A stretch of 64,000 nucleotides of DNA from Pedobacter indicus. GTDB lineage: Bacteria > Bacteroidota > Bacteroidia > Sphingobacteriales > Sphingobacteriaceae. The DNA lies in the NCBI RefSeq assembly GCF_003449035.1, contig NZ_QRGB01000001.1, forward strand, positions 806,001 through 870,000. Direction: 5' to 3'. The number at the start of each line of letters is the position of its first letter. The first letter of the stretch is position 1. Made by a program: the position numbers and the translations under genes. Positions 24,081 through 32,127 of the stretch are shown piece by piece. The notes beneath the pieces were generated by a model. It saw only the letters and a program-made list of their open reading frames with translations. It ran no database searches and had not been told where the DNA came from.

Positions 24081-27050
24081 TTACAACTTACGCTTCACTT
24101 CAACTTGTTCGTAGGCTTCTACAATATCTCCCACTTTAATATCATTAAACTTCTCGATATTCAAACCACATTCATATCCTGCTGATACTTCTTTCACATC
24201 ATCTTTAAAGCGTTTAAGTGACGCAAGTTTTCCAGTATAAACAACAACACCGTCACGGATAATGCGGATGTCATGGTTGCGGTTGATCTTACCATCTAAT
24301 ACCATACAACCCGCAATAGTTCCAACTTTAGAAATTTTGAAGGTTTCACGGATTTCAACATTGGCAACAATCTTCTCTTCAAACTTCGGTGCCAGCATTC
24401 CTTCCATAGCAGATTTTAATTCATCTATTGCATCATAAATAATAGAATAGAGTCGAATGTCAATCTGTTCTTGCTCTGCTAGTTTCCGTGCTCCGGTTGA
24501 TGGTCGAACTTGGAAACCGATGATGATAGCATCTGATGCAGAAGCTAATAAAACATCTGATTCTGAAATTTGACCCACCGATTTATGGATAACATTTACT
24601 TGGATTTCTTCGGTAGATAATTTAATCAGTGAATCGGAAAGTGCTTCGATTGAGCCATCCACGTCTCCTTTTACAATTACGTTCAACTCCTTAAAGTTAC
24701 CGATGGCGAGTCGACGGCCAATTTCATCTAGTGTAATATGTTTTTGCGTGCGTAAACCTTGCTCTCGTTGTAACTGTAGACGCTGATTGGCAATCCTTCG
24801 TGCTTCCGATTCGCTTTCTAAAACATAAAAAGCATCTCCTGCAGTCGGTGCCCCCGTCATACCTAGAATCTGTACTGGCGAGGATGGACCCACGGTCGTC
24901 ACTTTCTTGCCACGTTCATTGGTTAAAGCTTTAACTTTACCGCTATGGGATCCAGCTAAAATAGCATCACCAATGTGTAATGTTCCAGCCTCGATAAGAA
25001 CCGTTGTTACAATACCTCGGCCTTTATCCAATTCCGCTTCTACAACTGAGCCAACTGCCCGTTTACTTGGGTCAGCTTTTAACTCCAGTAAATCTGCCTC
25101 CAGAAGAACTTTCTCAAGCAATAGATTGATGTTCTCTCCTGTTTTAGAAGATATCTCCTGTGCTTGATATTTTCCACCCCATTCTTCGACCAGGATGTTC
25201 ATAGTAGACAGTTGCTCCCTTATCCGGTCTGTATTTGCACCCGGTTTATCAATCTTCGTAAATGCAAATACGATAGGAACATTTGCAGCCTGAGCATGGT
25301 TGATCGCTTCTTTCGTTTGCGGCATGACACTATCATCTGCTGCAATAACAATAATGGCAATATCCGTAACCTTAGCACCACGAGCACGCATCGCTGTAAA
25401 TGCTTCGTGGCCAGGTGTATCTAGGAAAGTTATTTTACGGCCATCCTCTAGTGTTACTTCGTAAGCTCCTATATGTTGAGTAATCCCCCCCGCTTCGCCC
25501 GTTGTTACATCAGATTTACGAACATAATCAAGGAGAGACGTCTTACCATGATCAACGTGTCCCATTACGGTCACGATAGGAGATCTAGGAACCAGATTAT
25601 CAGGATTATCCTCTTCTTCTAAGTCAAAAGTCTCTTCGTCTTCAGGTTTGATGAATTCAACCTCAAAGCCAAATTCTTCGGCAACGATACTTATTGTCTC
25701 GGCATCCAAGCGTTGGTTAATGGAGACGAACAAGCCAAGGCTCATACACGTAGAGATAATTTGTGTTACTTGTACATCTAATAGAGTAGCAAGCTCATTC
25801 GCTGTAACAAATTCTGTAACGCGTAAAACTTTCGATTGCAGTTCACGTTCCATTGCAGCTTCCTCAGCGGATAACGCTACATCGTCCCGTTTCTGTCTTC
25901 TTAGTTTTGCACGCTGTGCAAATTTTCCAGACTTTCCAGCACCGCTTAGGCGAGCAAGTGTCGCTTTAATTTGATCCTGAATCTCTTTTTCTGTAGGTTC
26001 TTCCTTCTTAACAGGAGGATGATTACGACCTTTTCCTTTATGGAAATCACTTTTTCCACGATTTTGTTGGCCACCTTTATTCGGACCACCGCTACGGTGA
26101 GCCGGATTTCCCGAGCCGGGCTGCTGGCCGCGGTTACTTACTTCTTTCCGTTTCCGTTTTCTTTTGTGATCTGTTCCCGCTCCGGTAGAAGAGGCAATTG
26201 GCTGGCTCTTCTTCCGCGTATTACTTGGGAGTTCAATTTTTCCAACTACATGAGGGCCGGCCAGACGAACTGTTTTAGTACGATATACGTTATCAGCCGC
26301 CGGAGTGATTGGCTTTTCGTCTGAAGAAACTTTATCATCTCGTTTCTCTTCTTTTTTTGGCGTTTCTTTATCGGCTAAAGGTGCATTCACCTCTTTCTCT
26401 TGTTTTTCTTCCTTTTCAGCAGGAATTTCTTCTTTTTGGGGTTGTGGAGCTGTTGTTTCCTTTTTTTCCTCTTTTGGTTCCTCTGTTTTGTCTACCTGTT
26501 CGTCGCGAACTGGTGTTTTAACAGGTTTAGGTTCATTCGGCGTGTCTGGTGTAGAAGTTACTGACTTTTCTTCTTCTTTTTTTGTGTCTTTACTAGTTTC
26601 TATTGTTTTTGGTTTTCCAGATTTTCCACGCTTTAAACTATCAAGATCTATTTTTCCAACAACCTTAACTCCTTTATGGGTTGAAGAAGAATCCTCTTCT
26701 TCTCCCGTTTTATGAGGCGCTTTGGTAGGCTCAACAGGAGGACTGAACGTACTGTTCTTAATAAGGATTTCTTCTGAGTCAGCACTTTTTTCGGGTTCAG
26801 AGGGGTTTGTATCGGCTGGTGCTTCATCCCGACGGATTTTGCCAATCACTATTTGATTTGCTTCTTCCTTTACAATTTTATCCCCCTGATACTCTTTCAG
26901 AAGAACATCGTACATCTCACTGTTCAATTTTGTGTTAGGTTTTGATTCAATATCGTAGCCTTTTTTATTTAAAAATTCAACAGCTGTAGCGATGCCAATG
27001 TTCAATTCTTTGGCTGCTTTCAGTAAGTTTATGCTTTTACCTTCTGTCAT
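24081..27050 (-). CDS. infB: Translation initiation factor IF-2
   Basis: A 989-residue translational GTPase that brings initiator tRNA to the 30S subunit. An N-terminal IF2 subdomain (about 1-55) is followed by a long Lys/Glu/Pro-rich disordered region (about 60-270) and a basic segment (about 280-385, [13 protein letters not shown]...). The G domain has G1 GHVDHGKT (near 496), DTPGHEAF (G3) and TKIDKPG (G4), then the later beta-barrel and C-terminal domains. It is the last gene of rimP-nusA-infB but also has its own -7 element in the 96-base gap before it. The charged N-terminal half produces long, meaningless open frames on the opposite strand. Confidence 0.98.
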
Positions 27051-27081: not shown

Positions 27082-27089
27082 CAAAAGTA
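27082..27089 (-). promoter_or_regulatory. Internal -7 element (TACTTTTG) before infB
   Basis: On the minus strand TACTTTTG matches TAnnTTTG and ends 31 bases before the infB ATG. A TTG lies about 22 bases further upstream. It would give infB a transcript independent of rimP-nusA. Confidence 0.55.
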
Positions 27090-27146: not shown

Positions 27147-28382
27147 TTATTCGAATTCAGATTTAAATATCTGAATAACATCAATAATTGTCTGCTCTTC
27201 CAAGTCGGTTCGCCTCAATAACTCTTCAACGCTTAAAGCTAATACAGACCGGGCGGTGTCTAATCCCACACGCTTGAACTCGTCCAGAATCCAACTTTCG
27301 ATTTCATCCGAAAATTCTTCAATATCAACATCCTCTTCTGATTCATCTGCTTCGCGGTAAACATCAATTTCATAACCGGTTAATTTCCCGGCCAATTTTA
27401 TATTATGTCCACCTCGCCCGATTGCCAGAGAAACCTGATCAGATTGAAGGTACACCTCAGCTCTTTTCTCTTCATCATCGAGTTTGATAGATGAAATCTT
27501 AGCCGGACTTAACGCTCGGGTTATATACAGCGAAATGTTGTTGGTAAAATTGATCACGTCAATATTCTCATTTCTCAATTCTCTGACAATACCATGGATT
27601 CTAGAGCCTTTCATTCCGACACATGCACCCACTGGATCAATACGGTCGTCATAAGATTCAACAGCTACTTTGGCTCTTTCCCCCGGTTCGCGTACGATTT
27701 TCTTAATGGTAATTAATCCATCGAAAATTTCCGGTACTTCCAGTTCAAAGAGACGGTGTAGAAACTCCGGTGCTGTTCTTGATATAATAATTTTCGGGGA
27801 CGCATTTAGCATATCAACTTTATGCACCACCGCGCGAATATTATCACCCTTCTTAAAATAATCAGCTGGGATCTGTTCTGTTTTTGGAAGAATTAGCTCA
27901 TTTCCTTCATCATCTAATACCAGCGTTTCTTTCTTCCATATTTGATACACTTCTCCGGTAACCAACTCGCCAACACGATCTTTATATTTCTTAAATATTT
28001 CGTCTTTTTCAAGCTCTAACACTTTAGAAACTAGTGTCTGACGAGCGGCAAGAATTGCCCGACGACCGAAGCTTTCCAATGTTATTTCCTCAATATAGTC
28101 GTCTCCGATCTCTAAATCCGGATCTAATTTCTTAGCTTCTGCCAACTCTATTTCCAGTTCATCGTCTTCCGAGAATTCATCCTCAACTACAACACGGGTT
28201 CTCCATATCTCCAAATCTCCGTTATCGGGGTTTACGATTACGTCACAGTTCTCGTCGGTTCCAAAGCGTCTGCGGATCATGCTTCTGAAAACCTCTTCTA
28301 ATACACTGATTACCGTCGGGCGATCAATGTTTTTAAAGTCTTTAAACTCTTGAAATGAGTCTATTAAATTGATATTGCTCAT
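27147..28382 (-). CDS. nusA: Transcription termination/antitermination factor NusA
   Basis: A 411-residue RNA polymerase-binding factor. The N-terminal domain (about 1-135) holds the RNAP contact; an S1 domain follows (about 135-205, GELVTGEVYQIWKKETLVLD), then two KH domains (about 230-345, with VGACVGMKGSRIHGIVRELRNENIDVINF and VSLAIGRGGHNIKLAGKLTGYEIDV). A short acidic C-terminal part replaces the two acidic repeats of the Escherichia coli protein. It promotes pausing and intrinsic termination. It lies two bases after rimP and is therefore under the leader terminator described at 28864-28894. Confidence 0.97.
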   Translation of the reverse strand: MSNINLIDSFQEFKDFKNIDRPTVISVLEEVFRSMIRRRFGTDENCDVIVNPDNGDLEIWRTRVVVEDEFSEDDELEIELAEAKKLDPDLEIGDDYIEEITLESFGRRAILAARQTLVSKVLELEKDEIFKKYKDRVGELVTGEVYQIWKKETLVLDDEGNELILPKTEQIPADYFKKGDNIRAVVHKVDMLNASPKIIISRTAPEFLHRLFELEVPEIFDGLITIKKIVREPGERAKVAVESYDDRIDPVGACVGMKGSRIHGIVRELRNENIDVINFTNNISLYITRALSPAKISSIKLDDEEKRAEVYLQSDQVSLAIGRGGHNIKLAGKLTGYEIDVYREADESEEDVDIEEFSDEIESWILDEFKRVGLDTARSVLALSVEELLRRTDLEEQTIIDVIQIFKSEFE

Positions 28383-28384
28383 TT

Positions 28385-28849
28385 TTATTTAAATGAAATT
28401 AACACCTTTGTTTCAACTATATTATCGATATCAAAAAAGGATTCTTGTTCTTTTGTTTTTTTTCCTTTTTCTTTGATCAATTCTTTGATTACGATACCTT
28501 CCGACGTATAGCTAAGTAATTCTCCTTCATGCTTTTTACCTTCTTTCAGCTTAACATGGACACGCCTACCAATGTTTTTGATAAATTGACGCTCAAGTTC
28601 TAACGGGGTATCGACACCGGGCGACGATACTTCAATGTTGTATGCGGTTTTAATGATCTCATTCTCCTCTAAATGAAAACCCACATGGCGGCTGATCGCA
28701 GCACAATCTTGTATGCTAATGCCCTGATCTCCGTCAACCAAGATGGAAAGTTTCCCATTGGGAGTGAATCGCACACTTACCAGAAATAGATCCGGCCTAT
28801 CTGCTATTTTTTCCTCAACCAACCCCGTTACATACTTTTCGATATTCAT
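28385..28849 (-). CDS. rimP: Ribosome maturation factor RimP
   Basis: A protein of about 154 residues needed for late 30S maturation. It shows the RimP pattern LSILVDGDQGISIQDCAAISRHV and YNIEVSSPGVDTPLELERQFIKNIGRRVHVKL. The ATG at 28849 is chosen; an in-frame TTG two codons earlier is possible but less likely. First gene of the rimP-nusA-infB operon, the same order as in many bacteria, with a two-base gap to nusA. Confidence 0.95.
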   Translation of the reverse strand: MNIEKYVTGLVEEKIADRPDLFLVSVRFTPNGKLSILVDGDQGISIQDCAAISRHVGFHLEENEIIKTAYNIEVSSPGVDTPLELERQFIKNIGRRVHVKLKEGKKHEGELLSYTSEGIVIKELIKEKGKKTKEQESFFDIDNIVETKVLISFK

Positions 28850-28863
28850 CTTCAAAACTTACT

Positions 28864-28894
28864 TAAAAAAAAGAGGGAACAGTCTGTTCCCTCT
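28864..28894 (-). terminator. Leader terminator (attenuator candidate) before rimP
   Basis: On the minus strand an 11-bp perfect stem (AGAGGGAACAG / CTGTTCCCTCT, one base between arms, so in practice about 10 bp with a three-base loop) runs straight into eight T's (28872-28865). It lies only about 15 bases downstream of the -7 element and 15 bases before the rimP ATG. With this T-run it is a textbook intrinsic terminator inside the operon leader; the neighbour upstream is divergent, so it does not end another gene. Confidence 0.82.
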
Positions 28895-28908
28895 CAACTA
28901 AGATATCG

Positions 28909-28939
28909 CAAAGGTATGATAAATAAAATTAAATTCAAA
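28909..28939 (-). promoter_or_regulatory. Promoter of the rimP-nusA-infB operon
   Basis: On the minus strand TTTG (28936-28939), a 19-base spacer and TACCTTTG (28909-28916) make a near-ideal Bacteroidota promoter. Transcription should start near 28900-28905, just before the terminator hairpin. Confidence 0.82.
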
Positions 28940-29115: not shown

Positions 29116-32100
29116 ATGAAAATAGTTTACTTAAAAAGGATCTTATTACTATGGTTGGTAATTCAGATCATGTTTTCCTTTCAAGCATTAGCTCAAACTA
29201 CAATCACGGGCCGAATAGTTAACTCCGCAGGATCTGCTCCATTAGCAGGTATCAGCGTTCAAGTTGAAGGGAAAGTGATGGGAACCGCGACGAATCAGGA
29301 CGGGACCTTCTCGCTTTCCGTAAACTCTGCACCGCCTATTACGTTAATAATAAGTTCTGTAGGTTTTGAAACCAAAGAAATCGTAGTAACGCGTTCAGGT
29401 GAAGATTTGGCCATCTCTTTAGATGAAAAAGCGATTATGGGTGATGCCGTTGTTGTTTCCGCATCAAGAGTTCCGGAAAGTTTGTTAAAATCCCCTGTCA
29501 CAATCGAACGCTTAAGCACCAGAACCATTCAGACATCGCCACAAGTTTCATTCTACGATGCATTACAGAATATAAAGGGTGTGGAAATGAATACGCAATC
29601 ACTAACATTCCGTTCTGTGAGCACACGAGGGTTTGGAGCTAATGGCAACGTCCGTGTCGTTCAGTTAATGGATGGGATGGACAATCAAGCTCCAGGTCTC
29701 AATTTTGCAGTAGGAAATGTTGTTGGGATGTCTGAACTTGATGTAGAGACAGTTGAATTATTGCCTGGCGCGGCTTCGGCGCTCTATGGTCCCAATGCAA
29801 TCAATGGGATTCTATTAATGAACAGTAAATCGCCTTTCGAATATCAGGGGTTAAGCGCATATGTAAAGAGTGGTGTAATGAGTGCATCAAATAGAACGCA
29901 GACGAATACTGCATTTTATGATGTGGCTCTCCGCTTTGCGAAATCATTTGATAACCGCTTTGCTTTTAAAGCTAATATCGCTTACCTGTCAGCAGATGAT
30001 TGGCAGGCGACTGACTACCGTGATCAGAGCTTCAATGGCACGACACTCGAAAATAATATCGGTAACACACAAAATAATCCATATTACGACGGAATAAATT
30101 GGTACGGAGATGTAGGAACCAATGTATATGATATCCTTCGTGGGAATGGAATGCCGGGTGATGGGGCAAACGGAACATCCGCAACGCTTGGCGCAATCAT
30201 GACGACGCAGATTCCTCAGGCGGGAAATGCCACGTTGCCTCAATTATTGGCTGGAGCAGATCCTCAGGCCCAACTTGCTATGGCTAATAATATTTTCAAT
30301 GCGATGGTTCCACAATATTATTTTGCTGCTCCAGGTTATTCTGAACAGCAGTTAACTGATTATCCTGCAAAAAGTTTAAAGCTGAATGCTTCTCTACACT
30401 ACCGTGTTACGGATGATATGGAAGCGATCATTCAACTGAACTGGGGTAAAGGTTCATCGGTTTATACCGCAGCTGATCGTTATAATATCCAAAATTTCAC
30501 GATGGGACAATACAAAGCGGAACTACGGGGAGATAATTTTTTTGTACGTGGATATACGACTCGGGAAAATTCGGGAGATGCACATGCGTTGGGTGTATTG
30601 GGTAGCCTCATGAGTAAAGAATGGTTAGAAACAGCTATTGGCACTGGAGCGCCGGGCTTCGTCCAAAGCTCTTTTACACAATATGCAGGGGCTTTATTAC
30701 AAACCTATCAGACCAATTTGATGGGCGGAATGAATCAACAGCAGGCCATGGCAGCAGCTTATCAAACTGCAAATGAGTTTGCCGAGGCAAACAGGAATGA
30801 ATGGATGAGTAGTGCCTTACTTCCGGGAATAGAAACCGCAAATGGTCTTTATAGTGTTGAAGGAACCGAATTTGGAAGTGCAATGGCTGATATTAAATCA
30901 ATACCCATCCCTGGCGGAGCGCAATTTTTAGATCGTACAAATCTTTACCATGCTGAGGCGATGTATGATTTCAAAAGACTTATTGACCCAGCGACCGTGG
31001 AGTTATTGGTCGGGGCTAACTATCGGGTGTATGATCTTAATTCCGAAGGAACGTTATTTGCAACAAAAGACGGGACACCGCAGGGTGAGGAGTTCAATAT
31101 CAGGGAATATGGAGCCTATATACAAGGCGCTAAGACTTTTGCCGATGTTTTTAAACTTACAGCTTCCATTCGCTATGATAAAAATGAAAACTTTGCAGGG
31201 CAGTTTAGTCCAAGAATCTCTGGAGTCTACACGCTCGCACCGAACCAGAATATCAGAGCGTCTTTTCAGCAAGGATTTAGAATACCAACAACTCAAAATC
31301 AATATATTGACCTGTTAACTCCTCAAGCTCGATTAATTGGCGGTTTGCCATTATTTAAGGAGCGCTATAATATGGTTGAAAATCCTGTTTATCGATTAGC
31401 AAGTGTCCAAGAGGGCGTAATCGAACCTTTTGAATTTAAAGAATGGGAACCTGAACGTGTGGAAACTTATGAAATTGGTTATAAAGGCTTAATAGATGAA
31501 AAGTTGTTTGTTGACCTATTCTATTATTATAATCGCTTCCTTACTTTTGAGGGTAGCACCGTTCTGATACAGAAAAAGGATCCAAACGGACCGATGACTG
31601 ATTTGGCGGATCCTACAAAACGGAATGTTTATAGTATGCCCATGAATGCCGAACAAACCGTTAAAAATTCAGGTTGGGGTGTCGGACTCGATTATTCGCT
31701 CGGAAAGGGTTTTGTCGCGACCGGCAACATCACGCAAAACGTCCTTTTGAATAAAGACGAATTAAAGAAAAATGATCCAACCTTTGTGACCGCATTCAAC
31801 AGCCCTGAATTCAGATACAATCTCGGAATTACAAATCATAATATCAATAACACAGGATGGGGAGCCGGTGTGACTTACCGCCATCAAACAGAAATGATTT
31901 GGAACGCGGCTCTAGCCAATACCTTTGCTAACATAAACGGTTATACAGTCATTCCTGCGTATTCAACGATTGATGCGCAAGTCAGCAAAAGACTACCCGC
32001 TTACAAGTCAATCATCAAGTTGGGGGCGACGAATATCGGCAATAAACTTTATACAACAGGCTGGGGTAACCCTTCGGTCGGCGGAATGTACTATGTATCG

Positions 32101-32127
32101 ATTACATTTGATGAGTTGTTGAATTGA
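29116..32127 (+). CDS. TonB-dependent outer-membrane receptor
   Basis: A 1003-residue protein with a signal peptide (cleavage near ALAQ/TTIT), an N-terminal carboxypeptidase-regulatory-like beta domain (about 28-110: TTITGRIVNSAGSAPLAGISVQVEG...IISSVGFETKEIVV), a plug domain (about 120-240: SVSTRGFGANGNVRVVQLMDGMDNQAPG...VETVELLPGAASALYGPNAINGILLM) and a large beta-barrel ending in the aromatic YYVSITFDELLN. It takes up a ligand through the outer membrane with energy from TonB. There is no SusD partner, so it is not a classical SusCD pair; the following GH43 gene hints at a glycan ligand, but that is inference. The 260-base upstream gap is AT-rich with no clear promoter on this strand. Confidence 0.95.
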   Translation: MKIVYLKRILLLWLVIQIMFSFQALAQTTITGRIVNSAGSAPLAGISVQVEGKVMGTATNQDGTFSLSVNSAPPITLIISSVGFETKEIVVTRSGEDLAISLDEKAIMGDAVVVSASRVPESLLKSPVTIERLSTRTIQTSPQVSFYDALQNIKGVEMNTQSLTFRSVSTRGFGANGNVRVVQLMDGMDNQAPGLNFAVGNVVGMSELDVETVELLPGAASALYGPNAINGILLMNSKSPFEYQGLSAYVKSGVMSASNRTQTNTAFYDVALRFAKSFDNRFAFKANIAYLSADDWQATDYRDQSFNGTTLENNIGNTQNNPYYDGINWYGDVGTNVYDILRGNGMPGDGANGTSATLGAIMTTQIPQAGNATLPQLLAGADPQAQLAMANNIFNAMVPQYYFAAPGYSEQQLTDYPAKSLKLNASLHYRVTDDMEAIIQLNWGKGSSVYTAADRYNIQNFTMGQYKAELRGDNFFVRGYTTRENSGDAHALGVLGSLMSKEWLETAIGTGAPGFVQSSFTQYAGALLQTYQTNLMGGMNQQQAMAAAYQTANEFAEANRNEWMSSALLPGIETANGLYSVEGTEFGSAMADIKSIPIPGGAQFLDRTNLYHAEAMYDFKRLIDPATVELLVGANYRVYDLNSEGTLFATKDGTPQGEEFNIREYGAYIQGAKTFADVFKLTASIRYDKNENFAGQFSPRISGVYTLAPNQNIRASFQQGFRIPTTQNQYIDLLTPQARLIGGLPLFKERYNMVENPVYRLASVQEGVIEPFEFKEWEPERVETYEIGYKGLIDEKLFVDLFYYYNRFLTFEGSTVLIQKKDPNGPMTDLADPTKRNVYSMPMNAEQTVKNSGWGVGLDYSLGKGFVATGNITQNVLLNKDELKKNDPTFVTAFNSPEFRYNLGITNHNINNTGWGAGVTYRHQTEMIWNAALANTFANINGYTVIPAYSTIDAQVSKRLPAYKSIIKLGATNIGNKLYTTGWGNPSVGGMYYVSITFDELLN

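Follow-up and report, generated by a model that had tools for sequence, protein, structure and literature searches.

Several systems in which nusA or its operon is preceded by a leader terminator have been described. The closest is the 'rimP-leader' of Naville & Gautheret 2010 (PMC2965389), the most ubiquitous attenuator predicted in that study: a short terminator hairpin located 4–130 nt before rimP in rimP-nusA-infB operons, with no antiterminator and with NusA as the proposed effector. Bacteroidota go unmentioned in the main text of that report. B. subtilis NusA is reported to control its own synthesis by stimulating termination in the nusA leader (Mondal et al. 2016, cited through PMC12288461). 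In S. agalactiae, transcripts of gbs0413–gbs0418 (rimP-nusA-infB) end at an intrinsic terminator 31 nt downstream of the start site (PMC4448216). A structured 5′ element was also reported before rimP of Flavobacterium psychrophilum; it is conserved in other Flavobacteriaceae genera and has no Rfam match (PMC9723704).

The element analyzed here, in a 64-kb stretch of the Pedobacter indicus genome (the window), fits the published rimP-leader, as an intrinsic-terminator hairpin and a T-stretch lie in the 5′ UTR of rimP-nusA-infB; its kind is not unprecedented. Both combine a G-rich 5′ arm, a C-rich 3′ arm and a T-stretch with an unusually conserved stem, yet the published signature GGGc(..)gCCC differs from the GAGGGGAC..GTCCCCTC of Bacteroidia, the GAGAGGGAACA found here, and other clade-specific stems, and the strict GGGC..GCCC does not occur in the rimP leader of this genome. 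Further differences are the length of the leader, ~40 nt here, and the presence of the element before nusA also where rimP is not found. The gammaproteobacterial rimP leader of Rfam (RF01770) shares the operon position, with a terminator before rimP, but spans ~100 nt and has two tandem hairpins. Its model (gathering threshold 47 bits) gave no match in the window or in six other Bacteroidota rimP loci, while scoring 102 bits on the E. coli leader that served as control. Like the B. subtilis nusA leader, the present element places an intrinsic terminator in the leader of a nusA-encoding operon; however, the effect of NusA is experimental there and presumed here, and the leader measures ~180 nt in B. 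subtilis (PMC2965389) as opposed to ~40 nt. The S. agalactiae leader (PMC4448216) has a nearly identical anatomy, though in another phylum, and its short RNA has been seen, whereas the element described here is known from sequence. The F. psychrophilum element belongs to the same phylum and the same gene; the main text of PMC9723704 does not call it a terminator, tie it to the rimP-leader or to NusA, or trace it beyond the family.

Anatomy of the rimP leader in the window

The rimP promoter consists of a –33 element, TTTG (28936..28939, minus strand), and a –7 element, TACCTTTG (28909..28916, minus strand; a TAnnTTTG match), which are separated by 19 bases. Promoters of the TTTG / TAnnTTTG type are those of Bacteroidota. 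Judging from the –7 element and promoter spacing, transcription probably starts at 28902..28906 on the minus strand. Thirteen bases separate the TACCTTTG motif from a terminator hairpin of 11 pairs with a 3-nt loop (28871..28895, minus strand), identified by folding and by covariation in relatives, whose sequence is GAGAGGGAACA-GAC-TGTTCCCTCTT (28895–28871). It runs into a U-tract of eight T's (28865..28872, minus strand), the first bases of which still take part in pairing at the stem base, and the T-run is conserved in the alignment of relatives. Another 15 bases lead to the ATG (28849–28847) of rimP (28385..28849, minus strand), which encodes the ribosome maturation factor (Pfam RimP_N and RimP C-terminal domains). 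On the same strand follow nusA (27147..28382; Pfam NusA_N, S1 and KH domains), the proposed regulator and, at the same time, proposed target, and infB, encoding IF-2 (24081..27050; Pfam). The upstream neighbor, a TonB-dependent-receptor-like ORF, occupies 29116–32127 on the plus strand and is hence divergent. An earlier note, made from the letters of this DNA, had described the promoter, the hairpin with its eight T's, the nearby start codon and the divergent neighbor; its coordinates and distances proved exact to the base, and the orientation of the upstream gene is as it had said. With its start placed by the promoter motif alone, the leader RNA would be ~40 nt long. Such a length leaves no room for a riboswitch or a leader peptide, as the note had also argued, and both were discarded as candidates.

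The 11 kb that we scanned for terminator-like sites contained ten of them where 8.7 are expected by chance—a total near expectation—and the rimP leader hairpin was the best of the ten. Folding of the leader RNA yielded –18.4 kcal/mol (z –3.67), a value equaled by 0 of 200 shuffles. The 64-kb window harbors 79 TAnnTTTG motifs, four of which have, within 75 nt on their 3′ side, a terminator scoring –8 kcal/mol or better; the one in the rimP leader is the strongest by far (–16.2 kcal/mol vs –11.3 for the next), and none of the other three has a real T-run. An Rfam scan of the window, at gathering and at relaxed thresholds, returned no meaningful match. When the genome was searched with a covariance model of the leaders (R1), rimP came out on top with 36.7 bits, in a model whose training included the rimP leader itself, and the nine next-best matches (28.4 bits or less) resembled ordinary 3′-end terminators on inspection.

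Conservation across the Bacteroidota and covariation in Bacteroidia

The leader terminator is not a product of chance. Using a RimP query, we gathered 195 leaders from GTDB genomes (46 of them in the same family, 98 elsewhere in the class, and 51 elsewhere in the phylum) and scored a terminator as present if it reached –8 kcal/mol or better within 160 nt 5′ of rimP. This was the case for 192 of the 195 (46/46, 95/98, and 51/51, respectively), compared to 6.5%, 8.9%, and 16.3% of dinucleotide shuffles in the same three groups and 40 of 564 control stretches (7%) taken from the same loci. Inspection brought the count to 191 of 195, with the 51 detector matches outside the class all taken at face value as the same element. 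In three leaders (L049, L117, L119) the detector had scored stronger terminators farther upstream, with the real leader hairpin also there; two of its matches were spurious (L108, L140), and it had missed the hairpin of L114 on account of a longer leader. G234, a genome outside the 195, has the leader hairpin as well. The comparison of rimP upstream regions that the earlier note had proposed turned out in its favor: a terminator stands before rimP in every one of the family genomes, and in the aligned Bacteroidia leaders the T-run is conserved and the stem covaries.

By inspection, the leader hairpin is absent in two lineages of family rank, f51 (L108, L122) and f43 (L140, L142), both of which retain rimP-nusA, and the 0.5-Mb genome G225 has no hairpin before nusA; the hairpin is therefore dispensable. 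At the four f51 and f43 loci, rimP starts very near the promoter motif.

Upstream of the hairpin, at a distance of at most 45 nt, 46/46 family leaders and 89/90 other Bacteroidia leaders carry a TAnnTTTG motif (1.4 and 2.9 expected), and 135 of these 136 have it 6–30 nt before the hairpin, typically at 12 or 23 nt. In the rest of the phylum the motif is seen less often (15/51), with hairpin and T-run persisting. Promoter, hairpin, and T-run are all that is visibly conserved in the leaders, with no larger element or antiterminator, and the distance from hairpin to start codon spans 1 to more than 60 nt. Three leaders from another class of the phylum (L163, L164, L169) carry two successive hairpin-T-run units 5′ of rimP, pairs that recall the tandem terminators of the gammaproteobacterial leader.

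In an alignment of 104 Bacteroidia leaders, standard pairs occupy 93.7% of the stem cells, and nine of the ten stem pairs show changes on both sides. Double-change cells numbered 59, as against 12.6 ± 2.9 with shuffled partners and 6–26 when partners were slid by one to three columns. We consider this covariation strong but attach no formal probability to it, since kinship alone can beat shuffles without any structure. In relatives, G-U frequently takes the place of the A-U pair that lies second from the loop, a change that retains the RNA hairpin of the minus strand and breaks the DNA palindrome, arguing for RNA rather than a DNA operator as the functional form. The operator was accordingly rejected as a candidate, even though the site is nearly palindromic in the window.

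The stem itself is mostly GAGGGGAC..GTCCCCTC across the Bacteroidia alignment, a degree of conservation beyond what pairing requires. Its arms are G-rich and C-rich, reading GGGAACA..TGTTCCC in this genome and GGGGAC..GTCCCC in relatives; because its own stem is GAGAGGGAACA, this genome has no match to the exact class-wide motif. That motif, followed by a T-run, occurs in 35 of 99 class genomes, in 28 of them at rimP as judged by coordinates, and the remaining seven sites resemble 3′-end terminators. Within the family, the GGGGAC form is found solely at rimP, and seven other sites, of the GGGGGC form, lie mostly just past a gene end. The only 5′ leader in which the exact motif turned up is that of rimP; apart from a few exact copies elsewhere in some genomes, mostly at gene 3′ ends, this pattern agrees broadly with the rimP-leader study (PMC2965389), where the signature was reported absent from other terminators. 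Unrelated complementary sequences have replaced the stem in L022 (GAGCCCCGA..) and in L085/L087 (GAGGCACGC..), and the rest of the phylum (L149–L195) carries group-specific stems, such as AGTGGGG..CCCCACT or GTGAGCG..CACTCGC, that recur within their group. Given that some lineages swapped the sequence and kept the pairing, the stem sequence appears to be favored, not essential.

Linkage to nusA and a probable infB promoter

In all of the 95 long loci, nusA lies directly 3′ of rimP, so these loci cannot separate RimP from NusA. The RimP query found no match in six Bacteroidia genomes belonging to three families (G215, G258, G294; G224; G244, G282; loci L252, L255, L256, L257, L258, L259), where a diverged rimP elsewhere is possible and the three families are perhaps not independent cases. 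In each of the six, nusA is the first gene, and the TAnnTTTG-hairpin-T-run arrangement stands directly before it, with no space for rimP in between; the T-run is weaker in G244 and G282 (TTTGTTGTTT). A further genome, G393, has a short version of the hairpin before nusA that falls below detector scoring. That the hairpin stays with nusA where rimP is undetected speaks against RimP acting as the only effector, and in favor of a NusA feedback.

A second TAnnTTTG match, TACTTTTG (27082..27089, minus strand), falls in the short gap between nusA and infB and, being conserved in the family, is probably an internal infB promoter motif. The gap contains TAnnTTTG in 46/46 family genomes (1.9 expected; L001–L045, L073 and window gaps) but in only 5/45 genomes elsewhere in the class (1.7 expected), and the internal promoter is thus probably family-specific. 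The E. coli operon has several promoters, one of them inside rimP. Given the motif in all 46 gaps, IF-2 probably does not need read-through of the leader terminator in Sphingobacteriaceae. The earlier note had claimed that transcripts must read through the hairpin to make RimP, NusA, and IF-2; in the case of IF-2, the infB motif makes this claim doubtful here.

Proposed attenuation by NusA and competing explanations

In our view, the element probably attenuates transcription of the rimP-nusA unit, with feedback by NusA. RNA polymerase would start at the TAnnTTTG promoter and, after ~40 nt and ahead of any gene, reach the intrinsic terminator. Some polymerases would halt at this point, releasing a short RNA, and the others would continue into rimP-nusA; abundant NusA—a stimulator of intrinsic termination—would raise the stopped fraction and thereby limit its own synthesis; partial termination and NusA as the factor that sets it are the two steps that we infer. 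infB would probably escape this brake via its own promoter in Sphingobacteriaceae. The earlier note had proposed such a loop: its regulated promoter-proximal terminator finds good support in conservation, covariation, and co-segregation with nusA, with NusA as the presumed effector.

Some doubt attaches to the identity of the effector. The fact that the stem sequence is kept across the Bacteroidia well past pairing needs, and that the exact motif is nearly confined to the rimP leader while its other copies are mostly 3′-end terminators, would fit a regulated attenuator in which termination is helped or blocked not by NusA in its general role but by a protein reading the GGGGAC/GUCCCC stem (RimP, IF-2, NusG, or an unknown one). 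We hold this to be unlikely: several lineages carry unrelated complementary stems (L022, L085/L087, and those outside the class), and for RimP in particular, hairpins are retained before nusA where rimP is undetectable. Likewise unlikely, but of interest, is that the GGGGAC/GUCCCC stem of Bacteroidia might be a recognition signal that NusA or a partner reads on the nascent hairpin. The feedback terminator would then be sequence-specific and would evolve together with nusA phylum-wide, and in Sphingobacteriaceae infB would have gained independence from it later, through a promoter of its own.

Regulation may also be dispensed with altogether. A constitutive leaky terminator that sets a low expression level would account for the lack of an alternative antiterminator structure and for a leader too short to hold a sensor; still, so deep a conservation would be surprising for such a device, and feedback is on record for B. 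subtilis and has been suggested for S. agalactiae and E. coli, which makes this explanation rather improbable. Far more improbable is that the hairpin ends transcripts of the upstream gene or insulates rimP from read-through. The nearest upstream ORF does point in the same direction in 57/94 loci, but it points in the opposite one in the other 37, the window included, and nearly all class-level leaders have the rimP promoter motif directly before the hairpin; for the window, the divergent neighbor and the intervening promoter motif contradict this reading. Least credible of all is a non-terminating hairpin that would act in mRNA protection or on translation. Its location near the start codon and the mRNA 5′ end would fit such a role, but conservation extends from the stem to the T-run that immediately follows it, and the distance to the start codon is as variable as described above.

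Compared with the published leaders, what is new is the near-universal presence of the element in the sampled Bacteroidota, its covariation support, and its position before nusA where rimP is undetectable, as well as, probably, the infB bypass in the family of the window. The leader terminator also constitutes a ready family for RNA databases, as the current model misses the Bacteroidota leaders tested. NusA is a central transcription factor, and little is known about the control of its amount outside B. subtilis and E. coli; with the ~40-nt leader, the stimulation of termination by NusA could be tested in a phylum whose promoter system is unusual. The near-universal retention of one short leader terminator across Bacteroidota, and its staying with nusA where rimP is undetected, suggest a feedback of long standing that is linked to nusA itself.
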